Below are positions 1,487 through 47,869 of a stretch of DNA of 64,000 nt, piece after piece. The position numbers were made by a program, and so were the translations under genes. Positions within the stretch are counted from its first letter, which is position 1. Every line of letters starts with the position of its first letter. Under the pieces are notes generated by a model. That model was not told the DNA's origin, ran no database searches, and saw only the letters and a program-made list of their open reading frames with translations. Origin of the DNA: Thuidium tamariscinum (taxonomy: Eukaryota > Streptophyta > Bryopsida > Hypnales > Thuidiaceae); the NCBI GenBank assembly GCA_947034885.2, contig OX344749.2, positions 19,793,501 to 19,857,500 of the forward strand, written 5' to 3'.

Positions 1487-1873
1487 TTGGGTTTGATCAT
1501 GAGCACTACTGCCTCCACAATTGTGTATGGTGGCCCCAGTTCAAGGCGTCCAGGTGCGGTGTGGCAACGAGTTAGCACTACAGTGTGGAAAACTTTGAAG
1601 TGGATCAAAAATGACGAAGAAGAAAGCTTATGCAAGGAATCTTTTTGGACACCACCTCAGAGCCCACGGCATTTAGGTTTAGAAGATTCACAGAGCAATT
1701 GTAGCAATAATTTGAATTCCATTAGGAAAGCAGACCGCCTACTTGAAATGCATGATAGGGTATTGGATCAAGTTTTGTGGGAACCGTCTGTGCTTCCGTG
1801 TAAATCTAAGTTGAAGGTGCGGAGGTGTCGTTGGCGCCAAACTACGGTCTGTTTCTCTCCAGGTCCTAAATGA
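1487..1873 (+). CDS. Unrecognised ORF, possible exon
   Basis: An open frame of 128 codons; the likelier start is the internal ATG at 1499. The product is basic and hydrophilic, with a Trp-rich stretch near residues 26-40 (VWQRV, VWKTLKW) and an acidic patch (NDEEE). I recognise no domain. It lies about 430 bases upstream of the family A transposase-like gene on the same strand and could be its 5' exon or a separate captured fragment. The end of the frame runs into a sequence that is repeated about 235 bases downstream, so its last codons may not be genuine. It may also be a chance ORF. Confidence 0.25.
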   Translation: MGLIMSTTASTIVYGGPSSRRPGAVWQRVSTTVWKTLKWIKNDEEESLCKESFWTPPQSPRHLGLEDSQSNCSNNLNSIRKADRLLEMHDRVLDQVLWEPSVLPCKSKLKVRRCRWRQTTVCFSPGPK

Positions 1874-2190
1874 ATCGTCCAAAACAACAATTTGGAGTTC
1901 AATCCAAAGAATTTGGAGAGCGATCAGGTATTCATTTTGGATTTAGGTGCGTTTAGGATGGCATTAGGAGTTCCTAGGGTTTAAGGGTAATGGGTGACGG
2001 TTAGAAAATTTACCTGTCCTGATTTTTGAGTGAGTATTGGAATCGTATGTACTTTGTTAGGGTTGAAGGTATCTCTGTACGCGTATATTTCTCTCCGGGT
2101 CCTAAATTAACTTCCGAAAACAATGATTTTGAGTTGTAGCAAAAGAATTCTGAAGAGCGAGTACGCATTCATTTTGAATTTCATTTGCGG
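1853..2190. repeat. Diverged direct duplication, about 235-bp spacing
   Basis: The segment starting near 1,853 ('ctctccaggtcctaaat', then 'caaagaatttggagagcga' and 'attcattttg') recurs near 2,090 ('ctctccgggtcctaaat', then 'aaagaattctgaagagcga' and 'attcattttg'). Each copy is about 100 bases long. I see no coding sequence between them. Confidence 0.6.
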
Positions 2191-2309
2191 TTATTGATGG
2201 GTTAGGGGTTTTGGGTAACTTAAGCGAATAGGGGATGGAGTTCAGAGTTTTTGGTTTGAGGGTGATGCAGTTTAGATTATAGGGTTTACCTCTAATTTGT
2301 GTGTGAACA

Positions 2310-5300
2310 GTAGTCGTAACGTTGGTTGATCAAAATGGTAGGGGCGAATGCAAATTTGTCGAAGAACTGCCAGAGTTCCCTGTACCAGGTTGCGGTTTAG
2401 GTGCTTGGTTGTCCGAAAAGTGTAAAGCAAATGGTTGAGAGAGGACTCGTAGGTGTCGTGCTCGGAAAGCTCAATCTTGCAGTGAACACGAGTTGGTCTC
2501 TACTAGAAGCTTAAACAGAGACCCTAAGTTCTTGGTTACAAGTCACAAACAAGCTCATAGGACTAGTGCTACTCTTGCTCGAGACATCAGTTTGTATGCA
2601 ACGAAGAAGATGAAGAACCATGAGACGGAGGTTTAGCACTTGACCGTCATGAAGATCTTAGGGCAACCGATACTGTCGAGCATGGTCCCTGATTTTTTAA
2701 GGGATCCTGTTGCAGTGAAATTGCGACATGATGTTGTAGGTAGCTTGAGAGATGGTTTAGGGAGTCACCTTGTGGGGCTCCGGAAAGCTAAAACTTTTCA
2801 AGCAAAGAACATTGTCACTACTTTTGCTGTTGCACCAGGAATTGGGAATGGGAGGGGTGTGGCAGGTTTACTTGGAGTAGATCGGAGGAGTATCAAGAAG
2901 GTGTTTGTGAGGAGAATTTTGCTGGACACAAAACAAGATGCGTTTTGGCTACAAGATCAGAGAAGAGTCCGCTCAGATGCTCTCTCAGATGCAACAAAGA
3001 AGATTATTAGCGAGTGGTGGGAAGAAGAGACTACAGTTTCTCCGAATCGGAAGGACATCGTTAGAAAGTGGATTGGGCGGAATCTTTACATTGAGCACGC
3101 TACTCACTATCTTCAAATCTCCCATGTACATCTGCAATTTTTAGTTTGGAGCTATGGTTTAGGGTGATATGTTACTGGCAGCTGCTATGGTGTCAATTTC
3201 GGTCACTTTCATTCATTCAAGGTTGGCTTAGGGTGTTCAATTCGTTCCTTAGTCATTCGGAGAGATTGCCAAGTGTTGTGAATGGGTCTGGGGCTCTAGG
3301 CCCAAGAGAGTATATAGTCAACAACATGTGCTTAGGTATTTAGGTCAACTTCTTCCCTACTTTACCGTCCTTTGCTGTAAGAAGATAAGTAAGCGGTTTA
3401 GGAAGTATTCTGGATAATGGCTCCATTACATTTTCATAGTCCTTTTCAGGAGGGGTTGCTTCTTTGGTCCTTTGTGGTCCTTAATTCAGCACTTTGTATT
3501 GGATTCCATAGCAACTAAGCACTTAGCATTGCTTTGGTCCTTTGTGGTCCTTGGTTCAGCACTTTGTATTGGATCGCATAGCAACTAAGCACTTAGTATT
3601 GCTTTGGTCTTTTGTGGTCCTTGGTTTAGCACTTTGTATTAGATCACATAGCAATTAAGCACTTTGTATTGCTTTGGTCCTTAGAGGTCCTTTGTTGTAC
3701 TATTTTTGAAGCAGATAATGAGAGTATATTGCTTTTGGGATGATTGGTCCTTTTTGGTCTTTTTTGGTCCTTTTCATAAGGAGCGTAGCACTGTTTGAGT
3801 GTTTGGAGAGTCCTTGCTGGTCTTTTGTGGTTCAAACTAACCAACTAAGGTCTGAGATGTACTTTGGTGGCAGTTGGAATTCTTCACCGAATTCAAAAAG
3901 AAGTATCCAGATCTGACATGTGGATTAAAGACGTTTGAGGCATTAAAATGTTGGTGGGTAAGGAGATTGAAAACATGGAATACATATTGTTGTAGGTACT
4001 ACCAAGATTTTTCAGATCTCTAACATGGCCTGAATGCTATGAAGTGTGATTTGCTGGGTGTACATAAAGATTGCACCTGTGATTGCATTGTTTGTGCTAC
4101 TATTTGTGATTGTGAAACAGTCGAAACTAGATGTGATGCCTATAATGAAGTTTATGAACGACTAACGCATTTGTGGAGTTCAGTTTTGTGCAAAAAGGGT
4201 GAATTCGAGATTTGGTACAAGCAGGAGTGCATTCTCGGTGATTGTGAGAATTGTGGTGTCCAAAATTTGCGGATTGCCCTAGCGAAGTTTCTTCTAAGAA
4301 GCTAGTGAAGTCGAAACGCATAGGGTATGAGGAAATCAGTGTGGGGGAAGATGGAAAGCAAAAGAAGGCCATCAAAGTCATCTACTGTGAGACCCCCCCT
4401 TCTGAACTCTTGAATTACTTGAAACCAAAATTGGAACAGTTCACAAAATTGGAACAGTTCATTGTGCACAACTTTTTTGCCTCGTGGTAGGACTTGCAAT
4501 TCAAAGAATTGTTCTCTTCAGTCCCTCATGGTACTCTCATATCTTGTATGGATTTCTCTGAAAACTATTCTATGAAAATTCAAAACGAAATCTAGTCTAT
4601 GCATTGGCGAAGTCAACAAGTATCGATTTTGGTCCACATTACTTATCGATTGAATCCTGATTGGACCTTGTCGGGTGATGAGCCTTACTTACTGAAGGAA
4701 GTTCACTATTATGTTTCAGATGACAAATGCCATGATTCCTTATATGTTCAGCATGCCTTCTCATTGCACTGGGGTTACCTGAAAGGAGAGGGATTTCAAC
4801 CCACTAACTATGTTGTGTGGAGCGATGGTTGCAGTGGGCAGTTCAAGTCTGCCCGAGCTTGGTACTTCATAAGTCGATTCCCTAGCTTGACAATGAGTGA
4901 TGAGTTGCCTGAAGGTTGTCAAATGTCATGGAATTACTTTGCATCTGGACATGGTAAAGGTGAAGTTGATGGGGCAGGGGCACTTCTGAAACGAGAGTTG
5001 TATAAGGAGCAACTCAAACCTAACGGGAGACAGCTCCAGAGCGCTGCTCATGTTGTTCGTTTTCTACAGGAAGAAAGTAATAAGTTTCATGCAGGGCAAT
5101 TAGGTGAATGCCAGAGAACCACAAAAAATTTCTAGGAAATCAAAGAAAGGGACATTTGCAGGGTGGACAAACTTGAGGCGGAAACGATTCCTGGGAGTCG
5201 AGGGATGCACCAATGCCGTTCTTTGTCGTGCAAGGACCCAACCTTGATCCAATTTCGGCAACTCACTTGTTTTTGTGTGTCTTGTTCTGATCCCAACTAT

Positions 5301-5351
5301 GATTTACCTTGCTACCAAAAGGCCCACGTGCCCAATTGGACACTACACTAG
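2310..5351 (+). pseudogene. Family A transposase-like gene (DFSENY / SDGC / HGKGEVDG), broken
   Basis: I read a decayed gene in two exons. Exon 1 (about 2,310-3,125) has a Cys-rich start (PGCGLGAW...KC) and a basic block (RARKAQSCSEHELVSTR). A GT-AG intron (3,126-3,873) carries a 70-bp tandem repeat. Exon 2 (3,874-5,351) shows, in order, a YPDLTCGLKTFEALK block, a Cys-cluster (CTCDCIVCATICDC), MDFSENYSMKIQNEI, VVWSDGCSGQFKS, SWNYFASGHGKGEVDG, GSRGMHQC and a C-terminal CFCVSC motif. I recognise this signature order from repetitive protein families scattered through animal and protist genomes. The Asp of DFSENY and of SDGC fit a DDE-type nuclease, but that is inference. In-frame stops lie at 2,436, 2,634, 4,021, 4,488, 4,593 and 5,133, with a frameshift near 4,275-4,300. 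All six stops are explained by one transition in a Gln or Arg codon. It is non-functional as read. Confidence 0.72.
3462..3700. repeat. 70-bp tandem repeat, about 3.4 copies
   Basis: The phrase 'ctttggtcc(t)tttgtggtcc' restarts at 3,462, 3,532, 3,602 and 3,672, exactly 70 bases apart. Each unit also has 'agcactttgtatt' and 'agcaa(c/t)taagcactt'. The units differ at only a few bases. The array lies inside the intron of the family A gene. Confidence 0.9.
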
Positions 5352-5584
5352 AAGAAAAGCCTCAAAATTTGCGTTTGTTTCAACATAACGCGTCAAGTGA
5401 GTTATATTGAAACAATCGCAGAAAACGTAGTGAAAAAGTGGAAAAATGCAGAAAAATGCAGAAAAATGCATTTTTTTGCGTTTTGCCACTTTTTCACTAC
5501 GATTTCTGCGTTTGTTTCAACATAACTCACTTGACGCGTTATCATTAGGAGTAAAATGGACCCACAAAGGGGCTGTCCATAGTG
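5346..5584. mobile_element. CACTA-like end fragment shared with the 12.36-12.43 kb sequence
   Basis: From 5,346 (CACTAGAAGAAAAGCCTC) the sequence matches the reverse complement of 12,427 down to about 12,361. The match runs through 'aatttgcgtttgtttcaac' and resumes with 'cattaggagta(a/g)aatggaccc'. CACTAGAAGAAAA resembles the end of a plant CACTA element or MITE. The 5-kb copy is interrupted by a 158-bp hairpin insertion. I found no matching opposite end with a target duplication, so its full extent is unknown. Confidence 0.5.
5385..5542. mobile_element. 158-bp foldback (hairpin) insertion
   Basis: Left arm 5,385-5,441 (ATAACGCGTCAAGTGAGTTA...) and right arm about 5,487-5,542 are near-perfect reverse complements of about 57 bases; the outer 21 match perfectly. 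The loop is AT-rich with three 'aaaaatgcag'-like repeats. The homologous sequence at 12.4 kb reads straight from 'tttcaac' to 'cattagg', so it is the empty site. No target duplication is visible. The right arm also repeats the flank 'gcgtttgtttcaac' (5,371-5,384). Transcribed, this would form a long hairpin RNA. Confidence 0.85.
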
Positions 5585-5589
5585 CAAAT

Positions 5590-6227
5590 TTCAATCAACT
5601 TTCAGCTTGGTGATTGCATTACAAAGCAATGATGTTGCCCTGGGCAGTCTCTTGATCTCAAAGATCAACGATAAAAAATAAATTCATAATTGGGCAGTCT
5701 GATATCATTGAAGAATAAAGCTGTTAGGCTGTCATTGTCAAGGCCTTGTGGGCTCCTTTGTACCATGACGTGTTCATCCAAGCATCCAGCTGGTATGAAC
5801 TTCCCGCCACGTGAATTTCCCGCCACGGTTATTTGCATGCAATCAACAGTTGTAAGTTAAACTGAGGCTCTCAACGATCAACGATGTCAATTTGATCTTC
5901 CTTGAGTGAGCTAATTCCTGAGTTTGAGATGAGCCACATTTGTGTTTCAATTTGTGTGTCAGGTGGAATCTTATCTATGTCAGAGTGATGTTAGGTTGTT
6001 AACTTGTTGTTAAGATCAATATGGCGCCTACTGTGTACAAAGCACAAGCGTCAATCGATGGAAAGTACGCACCGCTTATCCAGAGAGGAAAATTTGTCCA
6101 TGAATAGGTCTCGAAGTCTTCATTTCCTGAGAAGCGGAAAATAGGTTACAATAACTTAGATCTCTGGTACGATGCAAGCATCTATCCATTAGATCCACGA
6201 TCAGGGAAGCGTCCACGTTTTTCATGT
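5590..6227. other. Spacer between families A and B
   Basis: Unique-looking AT-rich DNA of about 640 bases. Small ORFs antisense to the start of the next gene are shadows. A short direct repeat, 'gggcagtct', occurs near 5,642 and 5,692. I see no promoter I can defend. Confidence 0.4.
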
Positions 6228-9200
6228 TTGAAATCGCTTTTGGAATTTGTTGGAGATGGTGAGGGCGGTTTATTTGGGTATGTAAAAAGTCTAGAGTCTC
6301 AGGGAGGTCAAAGTCACGAAACTCAGTATATCGTAGAGACTGCATTGCTGAAAGAGCGAGTACTTAGCTTGCAGAGAGAAATCAAATACCAACAATTACA
6401 AGTAGAGGCGATACCAAACTTAGAAGAGAGAATAGCTTCACTTGAGGCTGACCGATCTTCGTGTGAGGAGCAATTGCAGGCTTTGCAAATAGATGTTGAT
6501 TCTGAGAAGAAGGCAAGATTAGATTCTGAAGAGGGCCTTGAGCAACAGAAAATTCAGTTGATAGAGAATCACAATTTAGAACTGCAATCAATTCGAGTAG
6601 AGCTTATAAAGACAAAAGCTGCTTTGAAACGTGTAACTGTCAAGTTTCAGAGCTTGCGGAAAACACCATTTGGGTACCGCTCTCAAGTCAGGCAACGGAG
6701 AGATTTGTCAAGTTTATCTTAGAGAGGAGGTCATGCTAAAGTCCAAAAAAGGTTGTTACGTACTATTATTGGACCAGAAACAGTGCGTAACATCCAAGAA
6801 GAGAACGCATCTCAAGGAAGATCTCAACGTTTGCATGGCAATACTGCTTCACAAGTTGAATCTGGGCAAATTTTTGCTAGTCTTTTGTCAAAGACTGAAG
6901 TCAATTCCTTACTAGAATCACCAAAGTTGTCCCATGTTGGTACTAGGATGGTAAACCACTATTTAGAGAAGATTGGGAAGTCTATAGGACCAGAAAATAT
7001 CCTTGAAACTTGTGACAGAAATGGCATCACCCATTCTGGGTATGGTGCAATTTACAAGAACTTTCGAGGAGCTGTAAAGAGAGTAGGAAAAGGTATTCGA
7101 GTGGGATGCTTGCCAAATCCCTACCCAGTGTCACAACTTCGTCAGAAATTAAATTCTAAACTAGAGGACATTATTGGACAGTACTACCACATTGATAACA
7201 CCCTGGTCATTCCTCCCTCAGTTAAATCCAAATCTAAAGAGCCTCTAAAAATAGCCTTATCAGCTCGAAATTCCTTCTTTGTTGATTTAGAAACTGTGCA
7301 AAGGACGATGGTCCAATTTTACGGAATAACGACTGTAGAAGTTGAAGGTGATCCTCTCATCTTTTGCTTGAAGCTTGATGAGGCAGAAATTGTCCATGGG
7401 CAAAAATTAGAGCGAGTCTCTATTACACTGATGAATCGTGCACTTAATCCAGCCATCCAGCCAAATTCTCCAGAGTATTTTTCTGTCCAGTCCGAGAGGG
7501 AGATATGGCCCATTGCAAGTTTTCAAGTCGAAAAAGAGTCACACCAAGTGCTAGATTGGGTGTTTAAGCAAACACAGATTTCTAGCTTAATAGAAGCTCA
7601 AGAAGATGGGAAAAAACTTGAGGTACCAGGAATCGGGGACTTTAAAGTCCAATGGCACATGGCTGCTGATATGAAAACAGTGAAATGTATATATGGCCTT
7701 GGACACGGTGCTAATAGTCGATTTTGTTGCTTTTATTGCTTACAAGAAAGAACTAAACCTATTGTAACAACAATTGCAGCAGCCAGAGATATGCTTTCAG
7801 TGAAGCGCGGGAGCTCATGGGACGGGGGCCTTTTTTCCAGGAACCATCGTTCCAAACCAATCACTGGATCTCAAAGTTTGGGCCGCTAGAAACCTGTGTT
7901 AAAGATTCCTATGGATCGTGTTCACATATGCACATTACATGCCATGAATAGAATGGTTGAGAAGATTCTCCATTTACATTTCATTTTTTTATGGACAATC
8001 AGGGATAAGTCTGTACAAGCTTCAGCAATTGACCTCATGCAGAAGGTCATTTCTTCCACAGGAGCTCACGGAGGAAATGTAATTATTTTCAAAGACCCTC
8101 AGTTGTCAGGAAAATCGAATTCTGTGCCTAATAAACCCAGCTTGAGTGGTGCCAATTGCAACAAGTTATTTAAACCAAGTTCGTTAGAAGGTGGATTTGA
8201 GAAGTTATGGAAAGACGTAGTCAGTGCAACAAAGAATCTTCTAGATGGTGGAGATGCAAAAAGGCTACAGTTAGAGATGTGGGCTGCATTGGACGATTTA
8301 AAACAATATTTCAGTTCTGATCTCACATTGTCAGATGATCAACGCCACCAGTTCAAAGAGAAAGTTGAGCATTGGGGGCGGCTATTCATTCGTTGCTTTG
8401 GCGAGCAACATGTGACACATTACATGGTGAGTATAACTACTCTGATGAAGTGCAAATTAATCACCTTGAATTTGGACTTGGATATTGTAAGTGAATTAAA
8501 TTGCATATATCCTCAATCGTTTTGCAATACGTAAAAACTTAGCCTCATAAGTTTCTGTAACTTGTTTAATCTACATAGCTTTACTGCACTTGGTTCGTTA
8601 AGTTCCAATTATGGACATATGGTAGTTAATCAGGTCATTTAGTTCCAGTTCATTACTATGTCAAGTTCCAGTTAATTAGATCATTAAATTCTAGTTAATT
8701 GGATCAGTCATTTAGTTCTAGGTAATTGGATTGTTAAGTTTGAATTAATTGGTTCATTTAGTTCCAGTTAAATACTTAGTCAAGTTCTAGTTAATTCAGT
8801 GGTTAAGTTCCAATTAATGGATCATTAAATTCTAGTTTAATCCTTAAGCTTGACAGTTACAATCACAAGGTCGATCCTAAGTAACAGTCCTTTACCAGAC
8901 CTTTCTGACCTTCTGCATTTTGTAATCTAATATGTCCATCTTTGATATATGAGCATGCTCTGAATCATATATACAAAACTTGATTGAAATAGATCGTTTT
9001 TAGAATCCATGCATATCATTCTGCATCTCTAGAACTTCTATTGATTAATTATCTATGACAATAATGATGTACTAAAAACAAGGTTTTGGGTGTAGCATGT
9101 TATAGTAAAGCACGGACCATGGTTTGTCGAAGAGTACGGATCTCTTTCCGTTTGGAGCTGCCAGGGTATGGAGAACTCGCACCATGCTGCTAAGGCGGCT

Positions 9201-9548
9201 TATCATCGTCATACTCAACATTCTGGTGGGATTTCTAGAAAAAGCGCACTGCACCAAACCTTCGAGCATTGGTATCGCATTATACAGCATCGATTCCGCA
9301 ATAAGGAATTACAAGAAACTGAGGTACGAATACCACAATCAACTGAAGATATGGATGAAGCTTTAGCAACTAGACGAGCTCGCACTTTCTCCTCAAGCGC
9401 TGCTGCACATTGGGCAGAGTGGAGAGCTAATTGCACTCGCGAAGGATCCCGCTTCGTTCCTAATCAAGTTTCAGAAGATCAACAAATCTCTACTTCAGAA
9501 CTAATTGATGGTCAATGCGAGAATTTGGCAGAGGAGCCTACAGTTTGA
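6228..9548 (+). pseudogene. Family B transposase-like gene, copy 1 (two stops)
   Basis: One frame runs from 6,228 to 8,426, interrupted only by TAG at 6,720 and TAG at 7,887. A GT-AG intron (8,427-9,095) leads to a last exon at 9,096-9,548. The N-terminus is a coiled coil (about residues 40-150). It is followed by NSFFVDLETVQ, PLIFCLKLDEAE, SVQSEREIWPI, AADMKTVKCIYGL, CCFYC, VHICTLHAMNR, HVTHYM and, after the intron, KHGPWFVEEYGS and QGMENSHHAAKAA. The Asp of ADMKT and the Glu of QGMENSH fit the first and last acids of a DDE nuclease, which is inference. Copy 2 at 44-47 kb has TGG (Trp) where this copy has the 7,887 stop, so that stop is a G-to-A change. It lies 0.9 kb downstream of family A in the same orientation. 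I cannot name the superfamily. Confidence 0.75.
8427..9095 (+). other. Intron of family B copy 1, with irregular short repeats
   Basis: The donor follows CATTACATG and the acceptor precedes CATGTTATA. Copy 2 has an intron at the same codon boundary (46,662-46,788), which confirms the placement. Inside it, about 8,600-8,850 holds an irregular array of about 20-25-bp units built on 'gttccagttaattggatcatt'. Confidence 0.7.
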
Positions 9549-9549
9549 T

Positions 9550-10590
9550 GTTGCTTTATATACTGATAAGGCAAAATAATTCTTGACAAATGCACTTGAC
9601 TGAATTCGCTTATATGAGGATTAAGATAATAATAATAATATTAATGAGAGAGTTTGGACATGCAGTCTTCAGACCAAGCTCACAGTCTCTCTCCTTCTCT
9701 GCTCATGTTCATTCCTAGCTTTGCGCTCAGTCTGACTCCCTGTAGGCTCAGTTAAGCTTCCCAGTCGCTCCCGACTCTCCCTTCAGCTCGAACTCCTGCC
9801 CTTTTGATCTCGTCGATGTTGCTCCTCCTTGTCCGTCTCGCCACCCGATCCCTCCACTGCGAGCTCTCGTCCCGAAGAAGCCTTTGGTACTTTGAAGTCC
9901 GAACCCCCTCCCCGATTCGCTCATTGGTTCCCTTCTCGCCTCCGACCTTTCGCCCGCTCCTCTTTCCGTTCTGTCCCCCTGCTTCCACCTCGCTCGGCCC
10001 CACTCCCAGTGCGATCAGTCCGCCCAGACTCGCCCGGAAGCTGCCTGCTCCTGGCTCCGATCGCCCCCTCCTTTCTGAGGAAGCTCCCTTGCGCCTGGTT
10101 CAGTCTCCTCTTTTTTTTCCTTTTTCTCCCGAGCTAACCTCCTTTGTTTTGATCTCCTCCCCTGGTTTTGGAGAAGAAACTGGTTCATAACTGTCAATCT
10201 ATTGAACAACTCAGAGTCTCTTAGGGGGCATCACCTCCTCATCAATTTGCTTCTTTTCATTGCGCCTGTTGATCTGCAAATCATTTTACATGAACTAGAA
10301 TCACTGACTGTAACTATTGTTCAATTAAATCCATATCTGAAGTGTATGTATCAAGAGAGGAATCGCTTGAATATATAGCAAGACTTACTCAGTATACTTC
10401 AATAATAACCTCCATTCTAGACAGTAAAAATTCTCAAATAGTGCAATCAAATTTGTTTATGAGCTATTACTTCTTGTCATTTAGTATTCAGATTTGAAAA
10501 CAAGTACTACAAATAACTAGTTCATAGCATTAAGTATTGTAAGTATATAGTACATAATATTATATATTACTTTAGATATTGTAAATATTC
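9550..10590. other. Spacer with a CT-rich, GC-rich patch
   Basis: Around 9,630 there is an (aat)n run. From 9,680 to 10,180 the plus strand is strongly C/T-rich and GC-rich compared with its surroundings. Open frames there on both strands are compositional artefacts: low-complexity Ser/Pro/Arg strings with no motif. The patch could be the 5' leader or LTR part of a retroelement, but I find no primer-binding site, polypurine tract or second LTR. Confidence 0.35.
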
Positions 10591-10593
10591 TTA

Positions 10594-11867
10594 TTAAGCC
10601 TGTATACGAGAATAATAGCCACTTTCTTTCTTAGTTAAGTTGTGGCTCGAAATTAAAACCTTCTGTGCTGGCAGTCCATCTTGAACGATCCACAATTGAA
10701 ACTCTTCTGGCAGAGTTGCTCCAAATGTTATACAAAGCTCTTGCCGCACATTCGAGATCGTCCAATTCTTGCACACTTCAACTTCATCCTGCCATCCTTC
10801 AAATTCACATAAAATTTTGATAACATCGATGGGTCCGCTCTGATCGATAAGTTCCCAAATGCCTGCTACGCAACGTGCTCTGTTGTAACTGAAGTTACAG
10901 TACAATATTGATCAACTGATGTGAAATCGAAATCGAATGGAATGACAATCCACTGTACACTTTATGATATCGTTTCCAACTGTAACCTTGGTATTCCAAC
11001 CAGCATCCATGAGAGACGACAACAATTCTTCCGAAATGTCTTTGACCACAAAGAATGTTGTTGTCCTGTGAATGTTGGAGGCATTTGAAAACAAATCAAC
11101 TAGTACGTGAACTGGCATCCACCACTGTAGATGTGTCTACTTATTACTTGTACTAGGTCTCATTGACAAGAGAAAATCACTACGCATGCGAGCTCGAAAT
11201 GACTCTGAGGTATCCATGTCCGGCAGAGGCCATGAAGGATCATCAAATGCAGGTAGAGGAATAGATTCCAAACTACCAAACTGCTCTTGCCCTACTCGTG
11301 GGTGATAGTATGCATTATAAAAGAACAAACTTTCCTGTAAGAGTTCCTTGTGGGTGCGGTCACCTCGACTTGGTTCTCCAATATTAGCATGTACAACGTT
11401 GATTGGACCGGTTATGCTTTTAACATCAATCCAATCCTCATAACGTGAAGGATACAAATCTGCCAAAAATAACAGAATAATAAAAATATAAGGTCAAAGA
11501 ATCTAAAGATATTGAAAAAATAGATTGCAGTTATAATAGAGATTAAGGAGTACTTACAGTTGCAACCACATTGTGCTATGTGATTACGAGGATTCAGATC
11601 CAATTGCCTCATCATATATGCATGCTGAACTCGCACTTCGGTGACAATCAATGAGCCCGGTTTTACACGAAACTGCAAGATTCGAGCCTTATAATCACCT
11701 TCAACACTACTGCTTTTATACTTTTTAGCGTCTCGTGCATGGCTGCCTTGTTTTCTAGGCATTAGCATCACCCATGAGTGTATCTCATACTTCTGCGGTA
11801 TCCACTCTCCTTGAGAGTCTCTCACATTATATAACATAACAGCCTGAATAGATGATCGCGGTCTCAT
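10594..11867 (-). pseudogene. Unrecognised two-exon gene with two premature stops
   Basis: Exon 1 is 11,867-11,558 (start MRPRSSIQAV) and exon 2 is 11,459-10,594, joined by a clean GT-AG intron (11,459/11,558 borders, donor GTAAGT, acceptor TTTTTGGCAG). The joined frame is 392 codons. It is broken only by TAG at 11,137-11,139 and TGA at 10,912-10,914, both one transition away from Gln and Arg or Trp codons. Notable segments are VQHAYMMRQLDLNPRN, HANIGEPSRGDRTHKELL, and a C-terminal stretch (ISNVRQEL...LPEEFQLWIVQDG) that has the look of a ubiquitin-like or PB1-type fold. That last point is a guess. I recognise no family. It lies between family B copy 1 and a family A scrap, so it may be a cargo or accessory gene of an old element. 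Confidence 0.55.
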
Positions 11868-11930
11868 CTTTCAAGGTTTTTGATATAAAAAAGGATTGCT
11901 AACCACAAATAAACTTACAAAAATGCTTAT

Positions 11931-12050
11931 ACAAAGCTTCGATAACCAACACAGAGCTTCCACAACTCATACTGAACTTCTATAACTCACACAAAGCTTC
12001 CACGGCTCAGACAGAGCTTCCATAGCTCACACAGACAAAGCTTCCATAGA
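11931..12050. repeat. 20-bp tandem repeat, five copies plus a partial one
   Basis: Units of 'aca(a/g)agcttccacaactcac' type start at 11,931, 11,951, 11,971, 11,991 and 12,011, exactly 20 bases apart, with a degenerate tail to about 12,050. It lies just upstream of the start of the minus-strand pseudogene. Confidence 0.85.
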
Positions 12051-12360
12051 GCTCCACTGGAGAAGTTGAAAGTTGTCCTTTTGTAAAATGATAACAAGCC
12101 AGGTGTTATGTTTTCATTCCTTCTCTGTGTTGTACAAGCTCTGGCATTACTACATCCTGCTGGAACTGTGATGATAGCGTACTAAAGCCCTTGTGGGTTT
12201 GTAATGATGTATACTTCTCAGACTCACGCTTAGGACGATTCTCATTAGCCAGACACCTCTTTGTTTTTCACCATCAATCCTACATGGTGGCCTCAATGCC
12301 ACGCTGGTGAATTCATCATTATGGACTGGGCAATGTAAATTTTGGGGAGAACTCGAAGCC

Positions 12361-12427
12361 CTCTTTAGGGTCCATTCTACTCCTAATGGTTGAAACAAAC
12401 GCAAATTTTGAGGCTTTTCTTCTAGTG
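12361..12427 (-). mobile_element. Short repeat matching 5.35 kb; empty site of the foldback
   Basis: Read on the minus strand from 12,427 it begins CACTAGAAGAAAAGCCTC and matches the 5.35-kb copy for about 65 bases. It lacks the 158-bp hairpin, which makes it a natural unoccupied site. Confidence 0.7.
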
Positions 12428-12510
12428 CTACGAAGGATCTATCCGAAGTCCAGGACAAGCTTGCATAATCTACCTGAGCACGATTGGGACGACACTGAAG
12501 CTGATGTTGA

Positions 12511-12916
12511 GGCGACATTGTAGGGGAGAAAGTGCGAGTTGGCTTCAACATTGCTGTGAAGGCTGACTCAGACAATGGTGAAGCATTTTGGATAATGTTG
12601 GTGACAAAAGGAGAGCATGTGAATGCTTTGGCGTTCAAGGATGAATACGAGAATGAATTTGTGCCGAGTGAAAGCCTAATTCAAGGCTATTTGGTACAAA
12701 CAATATGCACCTGCCTCCAGAACTTATTTACTCCACGATGATAAGGCATTTGCGTATGTGCATAGCCATGCTGTTTTACTTTCCGATTTGGGGATGCCTC
12801 CTACGGCGCATTCTGTAAACGGAAATTTTGTGAGTTATGAGTTACAAGTGCCCGTTTTGGACTCCATAATTGGGTCTCTTTTAGATGTGGAGGCTACAAG
12901 GGGGCTTTCTGCTTGA
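12511..12916 (+). pseudogene. Family A-type C-terminal fragment
   Basis: The frame from 12,511 (GEKVRVGFNIAVKADSD, GEAFWIML) stops at 12,739. A +1 shift then continues with DDKAFAYVHSH and VNGNFVSYELQVP to a stop at 12,914. A 'G-E-x-F-W' motif followed by an aromatic 'AYxxSH' block is what I expect at the C-terminus of DFSENY-type proteins, which is memory-based inference. The upstream part of such a gene is missing or scrambled. It may be the relic of a second family A copy. Confidence 0.4.
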
Positions 12917-14456: not shown

Positions 14457-17400
14457 CTACTCTAAGAACTCTTTCTTTCGTGTTATAGACACAAAGAAGT
14501 TGGATTCAACAGTGAGAGAAAATGTCAAGTGGTCGCCTTCTTGCAAGCAATGAGAGGCCACAAACTGTTTCCACCTGTGTCCCATTTTCACTTGGGGCTC
14601 TCCTTCCTTGTTTTGCACATTCACGTTCACTTCCCACTGTGAATTTTGTTCATCAGACTGGATTTGTATCGAGTTCCCAATTTGCCCTCCATAGTCACAC
14701 ATAAAAGGTGTTGGCAGCGTCTACAAGGCAAAGCTACAAATGCAAAGCCACAACAACACAAAGTCAAGTGAATGTCAAGTGCTGCTTCTACACACTTAAA
14801 TCGTAATTCTCTGAGCAAGTTCAGTAAACACTAATGTCCAAGAGACCTAAAACAGTCAACAACAGTCCCTCATGTACACCACGTGAGCCTCAAGACAAAC
14901 CGCTCTTTAAACCTGCATGGGATGACTTCTTCCTAAAAATAACACAATCCCTTCTTCATACTACAGTGCTACAAAAAGGACAAACTTCAATCGAAAAAAG
15001 AACACAAAAATTCAACCATTACTTCCAACATTTGAAGCACAAGATTATAAAAACGCACCAAAGTGCAAAATGTTGACCTCTTAACCTCCCTTTCAAAGCT
15101 GGGAAACTGGCCCAAGTCTACATAACTCCCATCCAAGTTCCACAATGTGTTTCTATCTTGGCCAAAGGATGACATGGTAATGGAGAAAACAAACTCAAAG
15201 ACAAGAACCTTGAGTAAGAGTATAGCACTCAAACTCCCTGAAAGTGGCAACTTCTTCAGCCTCAGTGCTCAATTAGTAGGCTTGTAGTTAAGAGAGAAGG
15301 AAGTATATGCAGCTCTCTCTATCATGACACAGAACACTTGCAAGTGAAGTCAGTAGATTCCAAATCCAAATTCACCATCACAAGCGATTCTTCTAAGCTT
15401 CAAAAGACAGTCTGCGTCCCATCGCTAAACCCCAACCCATACCCAGGAATCATTCACGTGTCAAAATGGCTCATTTTGATTATGCGAGAAGATTGAGCAC
15501 AGATTGCATTCAAAAGTTGTTAAATCATAATTCTCCGACATGTGATACTACACATGTGTAAGTCTGAGTTATATATACATGTCCATTGTCGTAAGGTATC
15601 TATAAAAAAAATACAAACTAGCACATCTACATGTCCATATACCTACTGAATACAAGGAATGAGACTCATTAACGTGTGTTCCAATTTTTTAGCCTCACTG
15701 AGACGATGACAAACATCAAGAATGGTAAACTCACAACGTATTGATTACATAATACCTGATGGTGTTAAAAATGCCATATTCCACTCCAAATTCGGGGGGC
15801 TCCAACTGTGATCTGTACTTACTGTAAATCTTCAATTCGAAGTACCCTCTATGCATAGCTTCAAGGTAGATCCTACATGAAACCACAGAATTGAAGGTAG
15901 TAGCTCATGATTACTTCTGTTGTCTAACAACCTACAGAAAAGAGATACATACCAAACTAGACCATAAATATACATCTTGGATTCAACTTGCCCACAAGAG
16001 GGAGCCCAAAACTGAAAATAGATGCATAACTAACAAACACATGAGACCTTCATGTGAAACAATGACAGGTTTGCGCAATTTTGTTGTCATCGTTTCTTAG
16101 TGTCAGCTCGAGTAGAAACTCTGCCTGCAAGTGTATATAGAAGGACCTCACGGGATTTTCTCTTGGAATTCTTTGTCTTGGCTTTTCCCTTGGGACTGAC
16201 GGAATTCAAAGACCTACACTTAATTGTTTCCTCGCCACTTGATTGTACAATAGGATCCGATTCAACTACCATAAGTGGTCCACTTTGTACTAAGCTACTC
16301 AAAGCTACTTTCTTCCTCTTGTCTTCATTGTCGTCTAAGAAATCAACAGGTCTCTTCAAGAGAGAGCATCTGAACTTTGGAATGCCAAGAAACTCACAAT
16401 CACTACTAAGTCTTGACTTGTCTGCACCAAGGGAAAGTCACCCGAAAAGCCTCAAGCAATGGCATTGCACAGTAGGCATTTGCACAAAACTTGAAAAACA
16501 GAAATTTGAAGGACCCTCAAAATTAACAACAAACTAGTGAAGTAGGTTTTAAGCAAGCTTACCATGTCCCTCATCTTGTGCCATCCCCAAAGGTTCTTGC
16601 AAATCTAAATCCAAAGAATCATAACATCAATATCATTGACATTTCAGGGTGCAATTTCTAGTAGCCTAAAACAAGGGGACAGGGATGACGGGACGTCCGG
16701 ACGTCCATGGGACGTAGACACTACCCCTCGGACGTCCTGTGACATTTGAAATTTTTTTTGACATACGTCCAGCGGACGGGCGACCGGACAGCCATGCGGA
16801 CGGCCTTTCAATAAGACAGAAGGCGGACGGGTGGTCGGTCGGACTACGGACGGAGCAGCGGACGGCACCATCCGACCTCCCGTCCGCAGTCTCCGACCGC
16901 CCATCCGCACTCCCCGACCCCCCGTCCGCACTCCCAGACCGCCGTCCGACGGCGGTCTGGGAGTGCGGACGGGGGGTCTGGGAGTGCGGACGGGCGGTCG
17001 GGGAGTGCGGATGGGCGGTCGGAGACTGCAGACGGGCGGTCAGACGGTGCCGTCCGCAGTCCGACCGCAGTCTCCGACCGCCCGTCCGCAGTTTCCGACC
17101 CCCCGTCCGCACGTCTACTTCCGACGGATGCCGTCCGTTGGTCGCCGAGGACTACGTCCACTGCGTCCACTGCGTCCGGACGTCCGGATTTTGGACGTAA
17201 TTTTGCCCTAGACGTTGCAATTCGTCAACCCTGCAAGGGGAGAGTAATTACACAACCAATACGCCTTCATGTCCAAACCTGGATTAGCAATGACATCTGT
17301 AGCACCAATTGCATGACATTCCACACCACGAGTCTTCACTGGCGACTCGGCTTCTTGATCTCCTCCGGAATTTGAAACACCCAGCTCTACCTTAGTGTAT

Positions 17401-17642
17401 AACGGTTCTTCAAATGGAGTGTAACTAGCACGGGAAGGCAGCCTGTACCCGCCTGCTGTACGTATGCTACATTCCCCGTTAATCGGATCCTGTTGACCCC
17501 AAACCACATCCACTTCGGATCCACATGACCCCAAATCTGAGTGCTTCAAACTTGATTGCGTCCGTGGACATAAGCAACAATGAGTCATAAAGCACTTCCA
17601 AAAGAGTGTAGCACTCACACATAAGGAATAAGCAGGAAGCAC
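14457..17642 (-). CDS. B3-domain protein gene (5' end not located)
   Basis: Minus-strand exons join in phase: an exon ending at 17,279 (its start within or above 17,642 is uncertain), then 16,604-16,563, then one from 16,421 to between about 16,140 and 16,087. Further down come an exon ending at 15,059 and the last exon 14,720-14,457. The last two form a B3 DNA-binding domain: FPSFEREVKRSTFCTL joins TLPTPFMCDYG, followed by WEVNVNV, HRWKQFVASHCLQEGDHLTF and SNFFVSI. The strand order W...FV...L.EGD.l.F...s.F.V.I is classic B3/REM. The middle exon has basic clusters (DKRKK, KGKAKTKNSKRKSRE), likely nuclear localisation signals. B3 proteins bind DNA as nuclear transcription factors. The link between the 16.4-16.1 kb exon and the B3 exons is not proven, because the frame meets TGA at 16,087. 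An intron from 17,278 to 16,605 holds a GC-rich foldback element. Confidence 0.62.
16680..17215. mobile_element. GC-rich foldback element built of inverted 21-bp repeats
   Basis: About 530 bases of high GC in an AT-rich region. Both margins carry the palindromic motif GGACGTCCGGACGTCC (16,691-16,706 and near 17,176-17,190). The interior is a tandem array of 21-bp units of the type 'ccgaccgcccgtccgcactcc'. The array flips orientation at a perfect palindrome centred near 16,949 (cagaccgccgtcc/ggacggcggtctg type) and flips back near 17,050. Because 21 is a multiple of three, several frames are open but meaningless. It lies within the predicted B3 intron. I did not find a convincing target duplication. 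Confidence 0.75.
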
Positions 17643-17689
17643 TGATGCATTATGACCGAAGCAGTTATAGCAAGGAGGTGCTTACAAAA

Positions 17690-17900
17690 TAAGCAGGAAG
17701 GAACACTAAAGCAGAACAAAGCACAATTAACCACCACCCTAAACCACCAAGCACTTGCAGGTATCACATAACCACAAAGGGATCACATAACCACTACAAA
17801 GGAACCATGAGCACCACCAAGCACTTGCAGGTATCACATAACCACCACAAAGGAACAACGAGTACCACCAACTGAAGTACAAATAAGCAACGATATACAG
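17690..17900. repeat. 70-bp-spaced repeat of 'caagcacttgcaggtatcacataacca'
   Basis: The phrase 'gcacttgcaggtatcacata' occurs at 17,751 and 17,821, 70 bases apart, flanked by degenerate 'accaccacaaaggaac' runs. The unit length equals that of the 3.5-kb array, and short phrases (cacaaagga, aagcactt) are shared in reverse orientation. A common origin is possible but not shown. Confidence 0.5.
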
Positions 17901-18093
17901 CACCTTCTTCTTTCGGCAGTGGCAATCCTTATGTAAGGAACTCAGAATTGAAGTCTAAGCAGCCATGGCCCTGTTCATAAGCAGCATTGGACATTTGTAG
18001 CTACAGTGGTACTTGAGCACTTTTGGCCAACCATTTTCATATGAATTTCATGTAGGAGCAGCTTCATTCAATCGGAAAAAGAGCTTCACCACT

Positions 18094-19704
18094 TCAAGCA
18101 ACCACATGTATCGCTATCAGCCATTCTCTATAGCAATCACAGAAATTAAAGAGTGGTGCAGTAGAAAGCAAATCAAAGGAAGAAAAACACTTACAATTTA
18201 GTATTTGACAGCTGCCATTGTCCTTCAAAGATTGCCTTACGGCTTCTACTTCTGCAGGTAATTTCAACCTCAGATTCTCCTCTTCAAACCTTGAGTATGC
18301 AGCTTGGAAGCCAAAACTTTGCCACCAATGAAGATGGAAAACTTCATGACATCGGATGCACTTGTGGTCAGCTTTGGCAAGTGCTGCTACACAAAAAATG
18401 TGGTAGATGTGACGGCAAGGCACAATGACAATATCAAAAAACGGATAACCTCTATTACAAAACACACAGGGATGCAGCTGCAAGATCGAAGTGTTCACAT
18501 GTCCATCGTTGGGCATAGTCGGATGGAAGGCTGGCTTGGGCCACAATGACAAGCCACCTCCTTTTTGCATCTCAGTACACTGATCTACAACAACAACAGA
18601 ATGTCGCTGAAGGTCCACAATCTCCCTTCTCAAAATCCGGAGATCAGATTCTACCTTCATCTGCTCGGATTCAATGTCTTCATAGAAATCTTGACCTTTC
18701 ATAGCCCTCTCCCGACTAGAATCTGCCACGGATTTGGAAACTTCAAGCTTTCTTTCAACCAGATTTGCTTGACTTCGTAGGATCTTCAACTTCTGCTCCA
18801 CATCTTTGAGCTGAACAAAGTCTATGGAAATGCCCAAAGCCTGCACACCAACCAAGCAAGGCAACAGTGAGCGCCAAGCTAAGTGGAGCATCCACCCTAA
18901 ACCCTAAACGCACCCTTCGAAATCCACAGCAGGTAAGGTGTCCAAAACATTTCAAAAAAGAACAGTAAGTTTACCTATAGATCCAATTCTTCAACCGCCT
19001 TGGTCGCTCTCTCAAACTGAATTTGGAATTGCAAAACCTTCTTTTCATCTTCTTTTGTGGTAATGTGGCAATCGTCCATAGTGAATTTGAATCTGACCAA
19101 CCTGTCCGATATTCTCTTGTACTCTACTTCAACGTATTTCACTTTGCTTGTGGCAATGACAAGAATCTCACCCTGAAGCTTATAAACATCCCTAACCACT
19201 TCCAAATCAATTGGTGACACCCCATAAGGACAAGAGGTGCTAAACCCTAAACCCCCAGAGGTGCTCCCGAGCTTCACCTCGATTCCCTTGGATTTGACTG
19301 CCGCTCCTCCTAAACGACTACTAATCCCGTCTCGATGGAATGTGCAATATCCCTCCTTCAATCCTGAGGCAGTAGCTTCGTCACTCGATTCTGGATTCAT
19401 GAACTTCAATAAGAGCCTCTATGCTCGATCTACTTTCTCCAAAGCAGTTGTTGAAGCTGCCAATGCCCAATTAACCTTTTTTTTTTCTCAAGTTCGTGAT
19501 GTACCCCTTCACGAGCCATCCAACAAATTCGTTGTTGGTAACTGAATGCGATCCGTAAATCTCCCAATACAGCTCCATTAAGTCTTTCCTCGCATTGGGA
19601 TCAAAGAATGTATTCGTGGTGCGTAATTTCGTGCACTTTCCAAATAAACCCTCCACATCCGTGTCAGTGACGAAAGCAACATCGGCAGCTAATTTAGGGT
19701 TCAA
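18094..19704 (-). pseudogene. RING-H2 coiled-coil protein gene, broken
   Basis: Minus strand. The start MNPKLAADV at 19,704 opens an N-terminal segment that loses frame at a homopolymer run (about 19,480-19,489). The next frame has TAG at 19,419-19,421 and another TAG at 18,975 just before an apparent donor. After an intron (acceptor GTGTGCAG before GCTTTGGGC) comes a coiled coil (KDVEQKLKILRSQANLVERKLE, in two halves). Then follows a complete RING-H2: CVFC, then C-R-H, I-Y-H, I-F-C, and KCIRC. The spacing C-x2-C-x13-C-x-H-x2-H-x2-C-x10-C-x2-C is textbook and predicts a ubiquitin E3 ligase. The exon ends at a GTAAGT donor at 18,194, so at least one more exon lies downstream. Two stops and a homopolymer shift argue for a pseudogene, although the shift could be an assembly error. 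Confidence 0.6.
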
Positions 19705-19719
19705 TCCTCCTCTAATTAA

Positions 19720-20560
19720 GCCCCGCTCATCCTCAAAAAAACTCTCTATTTATGTTGTGTAGAAAGCAATCTCTTCTTTGCATTTCTCTACACTCATCTC
19801 TAACTTGAAATTCAGTTTCTTCTTAGAATCCTTCCCTAAACTCTCTCGATGCCCTTGTTTTTCTTCTTTGCCCAAACTCTTCCTACGCACTTGTGAGCGC
19901 TCCTAACTCCACCCTCGAGCTAAGAGTTTTTCACACGGGTCCTGTGTCTAATTGAGTTTTCTTTCTAATTGGGTGAAAAAGAAAGCCTTCCAAGCAATGA
20001 ACTCTTTTAGTCACGTCTTTTAAGTTTTTTCTAATCTAATTTCGTGGTTATCTATTCTAAAATTCAACCTAACGAGGCCCTGCTCTATTCTATAGTTGTG
20101 CCTAAATCTAATTCCAAGTGTTTGGTAAAAGGAAACTTAACAGTAAAATAATGAGAATGAAAATCAAATGTGAGCGGTTTACCTCCTCTGCGTAAATCTC
20201 CATGGTCTCGTCATCAAACATCATCATGTGTAAATATTCCCCTACGACCTCGCCATCGAAATCATCCCAACTCTCCATCTAATCCATAGTAATTTCCCAC
20301 AACTGTTGGTAAATTTTATCCTAATTAAGAGAAACCACTGAAAGTTATGTAGGTTCAAGTTAATTGAACATTCCCTCTTCAATTCCTAACTTATTGGTAA
20401 TTGGAAAATGTCACAATATTTTGAATCTACTAAATAGTTCGGATGATTAATGGAAATCCTATCTAATTGTTAGTATTATTATTCTTTGATTAATTGAATT
20501 AGCAAATTAGTTGAATTACGAATTTATCTAATTAAATTTCACCTAATCCCGAAGTAATGA
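19720..20560. other. AT-rich spacer upstream of the RING gene
   Basis: No coding sequence or structured repeat that I can support. C/T-rich stretches immediately above 19,704 could be the 5' leader of the minus-strand RING gene. Confidence 0.3.
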
Positions 20561-20900
20561 GTTGTTCTTTTGTCTTCTTTCTTAGAATTAAAATATCATT
20601 ACCAAACCTAACTAATTCAATTTCTTGGTAATTCCTAACGAAATTGGTTGTCAATTAGTTTGGCTTTTTAGAATTAATTTAAATAAAGAATTGCAACCAA
20701 ATCTTTTATAATCTAATTAATTTTAATTTCTTTTAAATTCCTAAGAAATTGGTTGTCAATTTGTCTTTTTTAATTTGTCTTATTAGGATTAATTTGAATA
20801 AAGAATTGCAACCAAATCTTTTATAATCCAATTAATTTTAATTTCCTTAAAATTCCTAAAGAAATTGGTTGTCAATTTGTTGTTTTCCTTTTGGCTTATT
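20560..20900. repeat. AT-rich tandem repeat, three copies of about 105-116 bp
   Basis: The marker 'aaattggttgtcaatt' recurs at 20,641, 20,746 and 20,862. Between markers, 'aaagaattgcaaccaaatc' and 'taattaattttaattt' recur in the same order. The units are diverged but clearly related. Confidence 0.75.
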
Positions 20901-21399
20901 AAGCCTAATAAAACAAAACTAACAAAATCCAAACCTTCTAAGAATCTAATAGCCAAAGAATGTAGAACATTCCAAAAGACCGAGAACAATTTCAATAGTG
21001 TTATTCCAAATAAATGGATTTTTTATTCCCAAAGGTCAACCCCCAAGAATAAAGAATCCCTCTCTATAGTGTTATTCCAAGGAAATTAGTTTTTTAATCT
21101 AATTTGTCACGGTTAGGAATCTCACAACCTTAATCTTCTTCCTAGTTCTCTTTGTTTCTCATTTTCGTTGTGCAAAGGTTGTTGCAATATTTGTAGATGA
21201 AAGTTTGGCTATGGCGGTTAGATGCGAAGGATTTTGATGGAATTTGTTGATGTTGTAAGTATTGGATTTTTTAACCTTGAATTGAGTTTTGGAGGTGTAT
21301 GAGTCCTTCACAACTTCCTCTACTTGGTCAAAAATCCAATTTTTATAGCTTCAACTTTGAACAATAAAAAGTGTTAGTGATGAGTGACTTACTTGGAGT

Positions 21400-21720
21400 G
21401 TTTAAGTGAGTTGATGTGCGAGTTGATGTGCAAGTTGATGAGTGAGTTGATGTGTGAGTTGGTTTGGTTGTCTTTTTTCTTTCTTCCTGCACTCCCTGGA
21501 CTCCCAGCCCCTATCCCGCAGCTCCCAGCCCTTCCCGCAGCTCCCAGCCCCTGTCCTGCAACGGCCCAGCCACGTGGCCGGACCGGACTGGTCAGACCCC
21601 CTTGCCGCCCCGTCAACGCCCGCGACGTGGCGAGGCGTGATTGGCCTGGCAGGGGGTAGAGAGGGGAGGCTTGGTTATTGTCTGCTCAGACTGACTGGCC
21701 TTCGGGCTGGCTGGCCCAAA
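21400..21720. repeat. 12-bp minisatellite beside a GC-rich patch
   Basis: From about 21,407 to 21,462 'gagttgatgtg(c/t)' repeats about five times. Then 'cccgcagctcccagccc'-type units repeat three times (21,500-21,560), followed by GC-rich DNA to about 21,720. Open frames here are low-complexity (Pro/Ala) and I do not treat them as genes. Confidence 0.6.
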
Positions 21721-21859
21721 ACTGATTTTTGTTTTTTTCAGATTTTTTCCAAAAAAACACAACTAACTAATCAAGACTAACTTACGTTTTTGACGAAAAC
21801 TAAACTAATAATTCTAACACAAAGACACTATAAAACTATAAGAACACGTACTTGGGGGA

Positions 21860-22600
21860 TTATTCGGATACCTTGACTAGCCGAATAGAGATTTTATCCC
21901 ACCGACTCTAGTCCTTCATCGCAACGGGGGAATGATAAAGAGAATGGTTCAAGTGAGTTATTAGCTCATCTTGACTCTACTAATACCCAATGCTTTGATG
22001 GTCTATTCCCCGACTGATTCTTTTACCAAAGAGGTTATTTGAATTGGTGACTAAATTTCCTTGGTTGTGAGAATTGTAGGGAGTTCAGAGCTTCGCCGTA
22101 TGAGATTTAGAGGAATAGTATTTTGAGACTTTATCCGCAAAAGGTGGTACACATGACAGTGTTTAACCAAACTTTCACATTAAGTTTTCAAAATTTCTAA
22201 TATTTTAATGTTTCGCAGTCAAAGGAGGTACACATGACAGTGTTTAAACCGAACTTTGATGCTCCACACTCAAATTTTCCGTTTGAAGTAGATGGCAAAG
22301 GTTTGAGGTTGAACCTCTAACACGTGATTACAAAATGAGAGTTAGTTGAAGGGGCCTAAGCCTTCAAAATTCACCACAAAACATAAAAGAACTTGGCCAA
22401 GATCTTTGGTCCAAGTAGTGCTCCAGCCACGCCGGTAGCACCTAAGCGAAATAACAAAGTGTCGGTGTGAGAAAATAAGGGTACTGGCAACCTCGAGGGG
22501 GGCCCTTATATACTTGTGGCCGGGCCCCTCTCGGTAATTGCCAGTGAAAACACTTTGTTACTTCATACCCTAAACTACCCTAATGTAATTCCAAAATATT
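21860..22600. repeat. Non-coding repeat with an 80-bp direct duplication and a hairpin
   Basis: The phrase 'ggtacacatgacagtgttta' occurs near 22,145 and 22,227, about 80 bases apart, with similar flanks. Between about 22,456 and 22,562 an imperfect hairpin pairs 'aacaaagtgt...actggcaa...ggggccc' with its reverse complement; a 'ttatata' TATA-like motif lies in its loop. The layout suggests a fragment of a retroelement promoter or LTR, but no second LTR or coding region was found. Confidence 0.4.
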
Positions 22601-47000: not shown

Positions 47001-47259
47001 ACCCATGTTTTGGGTGACGAGCCCTAATTTTTTATGACGGATTTTAGGTGATGTCAATGTTTACAACCCAAAAATTTTATGTCAACAAAAATGTCCAATG
47101 TAACATCAATGTTGATAGTCCAATGTTTTTATGTTAACATTGATGTTACATTGGACATTTTTGTTGACATAAAGTTTTTGAGTTGTTAGCATTGACATCA
47201 CCTAAAATCCGTTATAAAAAATTAGGGCTCGTCACCAAAGATAAAGGTTTCTTATAGTG
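46990..47259. mobile_element. 270-bp CACTA-type foldback MITE, copy 2
   Basis: The same length and ends as the copy at 45,779. By eye it differs at only four positions, three of them C/T. It is flanked by the 3-bp duplication 'tat' (46,987-46,989 and 47,260-47,262). It lies in the same orientation, 941 bases downstream, within the 3' part of family B copy 2. The near identity implies recent insertion of both copies. Confidence 0.9.
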
Positions 47260-47262
47260 TAT

Positions 47263-47869
47263 ATATGAAAAGAGAAGCTAAAGCACATTGAGGCTATGCA
47301 TGGAATACCAAACATTGTAAATATTGATGTAACTGCTCAACATTGTGATGCATGGCACTGGTCTACTGTTGCAACAACCCATAAAGAGTCGTAAAACAAA
47401 TGCCAACGAGACGAAAAGCGATGGATGGCAGTGAATGAAATAAACACTGAATCACCAAACATAGAAGGTGCTTCCACTTGAAATGAAGATATAGTTAGGC
47501 AATCATCTAACATAGACTTAGAAGTAGAAATCAATCTGCTAAATGAGTGAAAAATGTCACAGGCCACTTAGGATCCAAAATAGGCCATTGGACAAATGAT
47601 GACATTATTGATATTACATATTTGAATTACAAACTCAGATTTTGAAGGTGTATCATATTTGCAAGGGTAGAATGTCGGGATTGATTTCATCCAGAGTCAA
47701 AAACACTATATGTAACTGGTCCTAATTAGATGAAGGTACTTTTTTTTTCTCTAAATCATAGATTTTCTCTATGTTTTTCTACAAATCCTCAGACTCATTC
47801 TAATCCTATAATTAAATATTAATATTTAATTTGCATAATAATATATTAAATTTTAAAAAACTAAAAATA
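47263..47869. other. Degenerate 3' end of family B copy 2, and spacer
   Basis: The first 300 bases probably hold the rest of the broken reading frame but are full of stops. The remainder is AT-rich. Confidence 0.35.

Follow-up and report, generated by a model that had tools for sequence, protein, structure and literature searches.

Insertion without a target-site duplication (TSD) is rare among transposable elements of the terminal inverted repeat (TIR) type. Spy, of the PHIS superfamily, is a TIR element that makes no TSD and targets AAATTT, and it is described as distinct from all other DNA transposons by this target preference and by its lack of TSDs (PMC4482050). CACTA elements generate 3-bp TSDs (PMC10741241), and variable TSDs of 2–4 bp are quoted for the CMC superfamily (PMC4482050). 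Sola elements carry TIRs and a DDD (three-aspartate) transposase, generate 4-bp TSDs and measure 2–9 kb or over 15 kb (PMC10741241, PMC9033089); Sola1 has been described in the moss Physcomitrella (PMC10741241), and Sola2 families have AT-rich (AWWT) 4-bp TSDs (PMC3627910). Here we analysed a 64,000-nucleotide stretch of the genome of the moss Thuidium tamariscinum (assembly GCA_947034885.2, contig OX344749.2, positions 19,793,501 to 19,857,500 of the forward strand), hereafter the window, in which an initial annotation had noticed two genes of unrelated DDE-like (Asp-Asp-Glu) families, A and B, lying head to tail. We found that the two genes belong to different members of a nest of three elements, in which a miniature inverted-repeat transposable element (MITE) sits in element A, and element B sits in the MITE. 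Judged from its ends and insertion sites, B is most likely a TIR transposon that integrates with zero stagger, and we put the probability of the reading as a whole (the nest, with B inserting with a 0-bp stagger by means of a putative DDE transposase) at roughly 0.78.

Element A spans 872-24431 on the + strand and amounts to ~11.5 kb without the insertions nested in it. The main exon of its transposase gene, which carries the motifs DFSENY, WSDG and KGEVDG, runs over 3846-5135 (+ strand) and resumes past a nested insertion at ~12431-12900. Three other copies of A (L041, L042 and L043; L and C are our labels for loci and contigs, respectively) run unbroken across the junction 5346/12428 and are devoid of the MITE, the 4-bp overlap at the junction comprising CTA and the initial C of the MITE. 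In the window, the MITE is represented by a left piece of 197 bp (5346-5542) and a right piece of 39 bp (12389-12427), which, when joined, form a 236-bp near-perfect palindrome, the outer 60 bp of which are perfect across the B junction. This hairpin bears both of the CACTA features tested, namely CACTA ends and a 3-bp TSD (CTA, at 5343-5345 and 12428-12430). Element B (6846 bp, 5543-12388, + strand) separates the two pieces, with ends CATTAGGAGTA...CTAATG and no TSD. The order of insertion is A, then the MITE into A's transposase gene, and then B into the MITE. The perfect CACTA-type inverted repeat was also considered as B's own ends and was rejected: other B copies end at CATTAG, and the CACTA pieces join as a palindromic MITE.

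The ends of B are inverted (CATTAG...CTAATG), and the CATTAG border recurs with different flanks in L003/L052, L004-L010, L048, L050, L054, L055, L057 and L058. Our search for B ends yielded 31 matches against 11 for a reversed control, so that approximately one-third of the matches may be due to chance. The flanks were compared in seven gene-bearing B copies with both ends read, as well as in two further end pairs with unread interiors, namely one on C4 (4.0 kb, outside the listed B loci) and a second pair on C11 (12.3 kb, containing listed B matches). None of these nine sites displayed a direct repeat longer than 2 bp (1 bp in C2 and 2 bp in C3). For six of the seven gene-bearing copies, a related empty site crosses the junction without a gap there. 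The empty site of the window copy is the other arm of the MITE (189 bp, 39 of which lie past the junction; 90%, ungapped), that on C11 is a satellite (125 bp, 90%, ungapped; of five further units displayed, two have a gap of 3 bases ~10 bases from the junction), and that on C5 is a hairpin MITE (50 bp, 86%, ungapped), while the alignment on C3 covers 217 bp at 94% with one gap, away from the junction. We regard these four sites as convincing on their alignments, and those on C9 and C6 as weak. As a positive control, the same empty-site method yielded the 4 bp of element A in three of three copies, and the missing TSD of B thus cannot be attributed to blindness of the method. AAATTT is the target at none of the nine B sites, and no fixed motif emerged, T at -2 (6/9) and C at +4 (5/9) being the commonest target letters. 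A preference of B for hairpins was also considered and was not supported: when the joined flanks were folded and compared with 1000 random 120-mers, two of seven sites fell within the lowest 3%, and the other five were unremarkable.

The two gene families are genuine and conserved, and are not related to each other. The motifs reported by the initial annotation were present as claimed: MDFSENY of family A lies at 4548-4568 with an in-frame TAG next to it, and VVWSDGCSGQF and HGKGEVDG lie in the open reading frame (ORF) 4596-5135; of the family B motifs, ADMKT lies in the ORF 6723-7889, HICTLHA in 7890-8534, and GPWFVEE and QGMENSH in 9096-9548. Each family likewise has its conserved acidic residues in the order that had been reported, and both genes reach past the coordinates first given to them. 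When the profiles of the two families were aligned with hhalign, the probability was 0.2%, in agreement with the claim that they are unrelated. In the genome searched (363 Mb in 19 contigs), a 179-amino-acid piece of A found 162 matches at E<=1e-3, 150 of which are listed, and a 388-amino-acid piece of B found 112 matches, corresponding to 72 merged loci; with this many matches, the ORFs are not chance products. The locus counts for both families are lower bounds, as an older B copy at 44.6-47.0 kb of the window is absent from the B list. Among family members with long open frames, the ratio of nonsynonymous to synonymous substitution rates (dN/dS) is ~0.09 where dS is unsaturated (0.09-0.10 in family A, where dS was finite for 4 of 10 pairs, and 0.09 in family B, where it was finite for 1 of 6). 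The copies in the window are decayed, that of A being frameshifted with in-frame stops and that of B bearing in-frame TAG stops. Substitutions between the window copy of A and its three closest relatives are not enriched at silent sites; such neutral-looking changes are what is expected of dead copies.

The transposase-like gene of B (6108-9548, + strand) opens with a coiled-coil-like part, followed by ADMKT, CxxC, D..HIC and MExSH, and is represented in L003 by a 745-amino-acid open frame plus the last exon. MExSH is kept in all nine displayed B copies (GME in seven and AME in two), and the Asp before HIC in 10 of 11, the altered one being the decayed second copy in the window. ADMKT reads [AG][DN]MK[TS] in eight aligned copies, with N only in L020. 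A GT...AG intron between GITPAG and ELQGDPL (window ~7330) was noticed in L006 (2113-2523) and L007, and is absent from the lineage of the window copy and L003. The second gene of B is convergent (10594-12300, - strand); its exons in L052 and L050 share 57-67% amino acid identity, with proportions of nonsynonymous (pN) and synonymous (pS) differences of 0.22-0.28 and 0.83-0.84, respectively. None of the transposase-like pieces of A and B passed the cut-off in searches against Pfam, in which the best match overall, lying in the coiled-coil part of B, was CmlS_C (E 0.0016, 19.1 bits vs a cut-off of 27). We also failed to confirm any relative of A or B in viral and prokaryote contigs.

The adjacency of the two genes had been interpreted as either two genes of one large element or two independent insertions. 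They do lie on the same (+) strand, 0.97 kb apart (between 5135 and the start of the first B ORF, 6108; ~0.9 kb had been reported), as would suit a single element whose genes became separated or lost elsewhere. Pairs of A and B within 100 kb are also slightly in excess (11 observed vs 5.9 expected, P 0.04), which we read as a sign of repeat-rich regions shared by both. Nevertheless, A and B occur within 10 kb of each other (between match starts) only at the window, i.e., at one of the 150 listed A loci and one of the 72 merged B loci, with 0.6 such pairs expected by chance; for the remaining 149 A and 71 B loci, no partner is listed within that distance. A check for co-occurrence within shared terminal repeats showed that each family has ends of its own, and that there are A copies without exactly the B segment. 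The single-element interpretation is already refuted in this genome, and we give it practically no chance, whereas that of independent insertions holds in a stronger form than proposed, since B sits inside A. It could also be argued that B does make a TSD, which is hidden since the actual ends are a few bases away from those assigned here, and the short flank matches in C2 and C3 are what such an error might leave behind. This is very improbable in our judgement, as the CATTAG border is common to copies with different flanks, and no duplicate is seen at the junction in any of the four good empty sites.

Several observations nevertheless weigh against a zero-stagger DDE element with the ends proposed here. 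In the stretches examined for L016, L017, L019, L020, L049 and L051, the B ends were not found, and neither were the left end of L044 and the right end of L010 in theirs; the pairing of the two ends of most B copies relied on their positions, not on reading through. No comparator empty site was found for C2, C4 and the second C11 site. The comparators for C9 (74-82%) and C6 (83%) are diverged and gapped elsewhere than at the junction, and one of the six matches spanning the C6 site (71%, at window 47840-48046) is interrupted by a gap of 5 bases at the very junction. The B copy on C3 is flanked by TA on both sides, yet its empty site itself reads ...GCTATAAC..., so that this TA/TA is not a duplication. 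In L020, N replaces the Asp of ADMKT, and the Asp of HIC is missing. On the protein side, single-sequence AlphaFold models (predicted local distance difference test, pLDDT, of 42 for A and 35 for B) were too poor to read an RNase H fold, and searches of PDB sequences with A and B gave no match with an E below 0.06. We infer the DDE nuclease identity of A and B from their sequence motifs.

Element A (~11.5 kb, with TIRs, a 4-bp TSD and two convergent genes) may transpose by a Sola-like cut-and-paste route, with its three-Asp gene as the transposase, and the 236-bp MITE may have been brought into this gene by a canonical CACTA transposase, of which the host has many. B is a TIR element of 6.8 kb whose two genes are convergent, and it entered the MITE without target bases being duplicated or lost. 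Its ~900-amino-acid protein is a putative DDE-type transposase that would join both target strands directly opposite each other; with such a 0-bp stagger, gap repair would leave no TSD. Compared with Spy (PMC4482050), B is likewise a TIR element inserting without a TSD, but has no AAATTT target and no IS5/PIF-type DDE match in Pfam. The likeness of B to CACTA/EnSpm (CMC) elements lies in its ends, as CATTAG resembles CACTAG; the differences are the 0-bp TSD, termini of CATTAG rather than CACTA or CACTG, and no match to Transposase_21 (PF02992). The last of these is not a failure of the tool, because this model, applied to the same genome, yields 150 scored matches out of 627 candidates. Helitrons and Cryptons insert without a TSD as well, but B differs from both in that its ends are inverted and that Pfam gave no match to a helicase or a tyrosine recombinase.

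If B is nonetheless a member of the CMC (CACTA) superfamily, the missing TSD would be a quirk of its lineage. The similar hexamers at the ends, the large size with two genes and the variable TSDs quoted for CMC all agree with such a placement; B, however, has no Transposase_21 match in Pfam in spite of the many that the model scores in this genome, and makes none of the 3-bp TSDs reported for CACTA (PMC10741241). We consider this placement unlikely, albeit the likeliest of the alternatives to a zero-stagger DDE element. More doubtful still is a non-DDE route, e.g., a recombinase, or end joining, in which the D/D/E order would be a coincidence. Precise insertion without a TSD, together with the want of fold evidence for DDE, is compatible with that route. 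The inverted ends, the ordered and conserved D, D and E with the CxxC pair, and the lack of any recombinase domain at the Pfam cut-off argue against it, and end joining usually leaves small gains or losses. Proteins with motifs similar to those of B are carried by animals. Among the papers listed in literature searches for TSD-less TIR elements, no plant example turned up. We treat B as a candidate for a new TSD-less group, or for a TSD-less variant of a known superfamily, such as a divergent CMC or other. That B founds a new plant TIR superfamily, defined by a ~900-amino-acid zinc-motif DDE transposase, CATTAG ends, a convergent second gene and zero-stagger insertion with neither TSD nor fixed target, is a proposal that we put forward only tentatively.

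The initial annotation had placed both families in no standard plant superfamily, which so far stands for B; for A it probably does not hold, its Asp motifs and the length of its TSD being in line with Sola. The inverted ends of A are 25 bp long, begin with GGGTGGAAGC, and read GGGTGGAAGCATGTTAATAGGAGCC at 872-896, recurring inverted at 24407-24431. The left border is common to L041, L042 and L043, and the right border to L045 and L046 (the loci of L042 and L043), with unlike flanks; the stretch examined for the L041 copy (L047) did not reveal its right end. The TSDs are ACAA/ACAA in the window (direct repeats at 868-871 and 24432-24435), CCCT/CCCT on C9 and CTTT/CTCT on C7. In all three of these copies, the match between the joined flanks and related empty sites was best after 4 bp had been collapsed: on C7 over 221 bp (97.7%, ungapped), on C9 over 151 bp (88.7%, ungapped; the comparator here is the inverted arm of the flank itself, which extends only 13 bases past the junction), and in the window at 69-79%, with fewer gaps upon collapse. 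Upstream of the main exon, the transposase gene has decayed exons at 1502-3164 (+ strand; ORFs 1472-1873 and 2637-3167; 96-97% to the copies on C7, C9 and C1). The main exon encodes 640-652 amino acids in long open copies, with a 652-amino-acid open frame in L022/L041, and the residues D227, D318 and D366, whose predicted catalytic role is based on sequence, are invariant in nine of nine aligned copies. The second gene of A is convergent (16082-19749, - strand, interrupted at ~16683-17232) and combines a coiled coil with a RING-like Cys/His motif; the RING-like part has 58% identity in L060 and 33% in L061, and its best RING match (E 0.014) is under the cut-off and only suggestive. Three close A copies also share a fragment of a B3 DNA-binding domain, as in plant transcription factors (14457-14720 in the window, - strand; PF02362, E=9e-12), which was not found in the 8-kb downstream stretches of the divergent copies L060 and L061, and which is possibly a captured host gene.

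Set against the descriptions of Sola cited above, A resembles it in the 4-bp TSD, the three ordered conserved Asp residues, the TIRs and the moss host. A is unlike Sola2 in that the TSDs of two of its three copies (CCCT and CTCT) are not AT-rich, and unlike Sola as given in these descriptions in its coiled-coil/RING-like second gene and in the B3 fragment of one subfamily, neither of which they mention. Element A probably fits Sola, by the TSD length and Asp motifs set against those descriptions.

Further insertions were noticed within A. A 4.2-kb element (19891-24084) with the TIR TTGTGAGC and the TSD CAC is nested near its right end, with a 3-bp overlap in L045 and L046, and two smaller insertions are present as well. 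The stretch 16683-17232 is a palindromic low-complexity insertion, in which ORFs overlap on both strands. Elsewhere in the window, the second, older copy of the B gene (44619-47001, + strand), with A absent, carries two hairpin MITEs (45779-46048 and 46990-47259), which are CACTA-ended and 98.5% identical to each other. In the rest of the genome, two B loci 53 kb apart on C6 (L004 and L005) have identical flanks and scores, and are probably a segmental duplication. Contig C11 (17.5 Mb, 4.8% of the genome) harbours 29 of the 150 listed A loci, a fourfold enrichment (binomial 1.6e-10), with B not enriched (4 of 72 loci); our guess is that this contig is perhaps a sex or heterochromatic chromosome. 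A satellite array of ~177-bp units with internal palindromes lies on the same contig (L053, 1-1001) and is broken by a B copy.

The nest in T. tamariscinum shows that neighbouring genes can be taken for parts of a single element, and that such a question can be decided by empty sites located within repeats. TSDs serve both to find and to classify transposable elements, and a family that makes none would escape TSD-based annotation. If our reading of B is correct, a multi-copy plant TIR family with neither TSD nor AAATTT target would mean that integration with zero stagger originated outside the lineage of Spy, and B would allow the question of how a transposase determines its stagger to be addressed directly.

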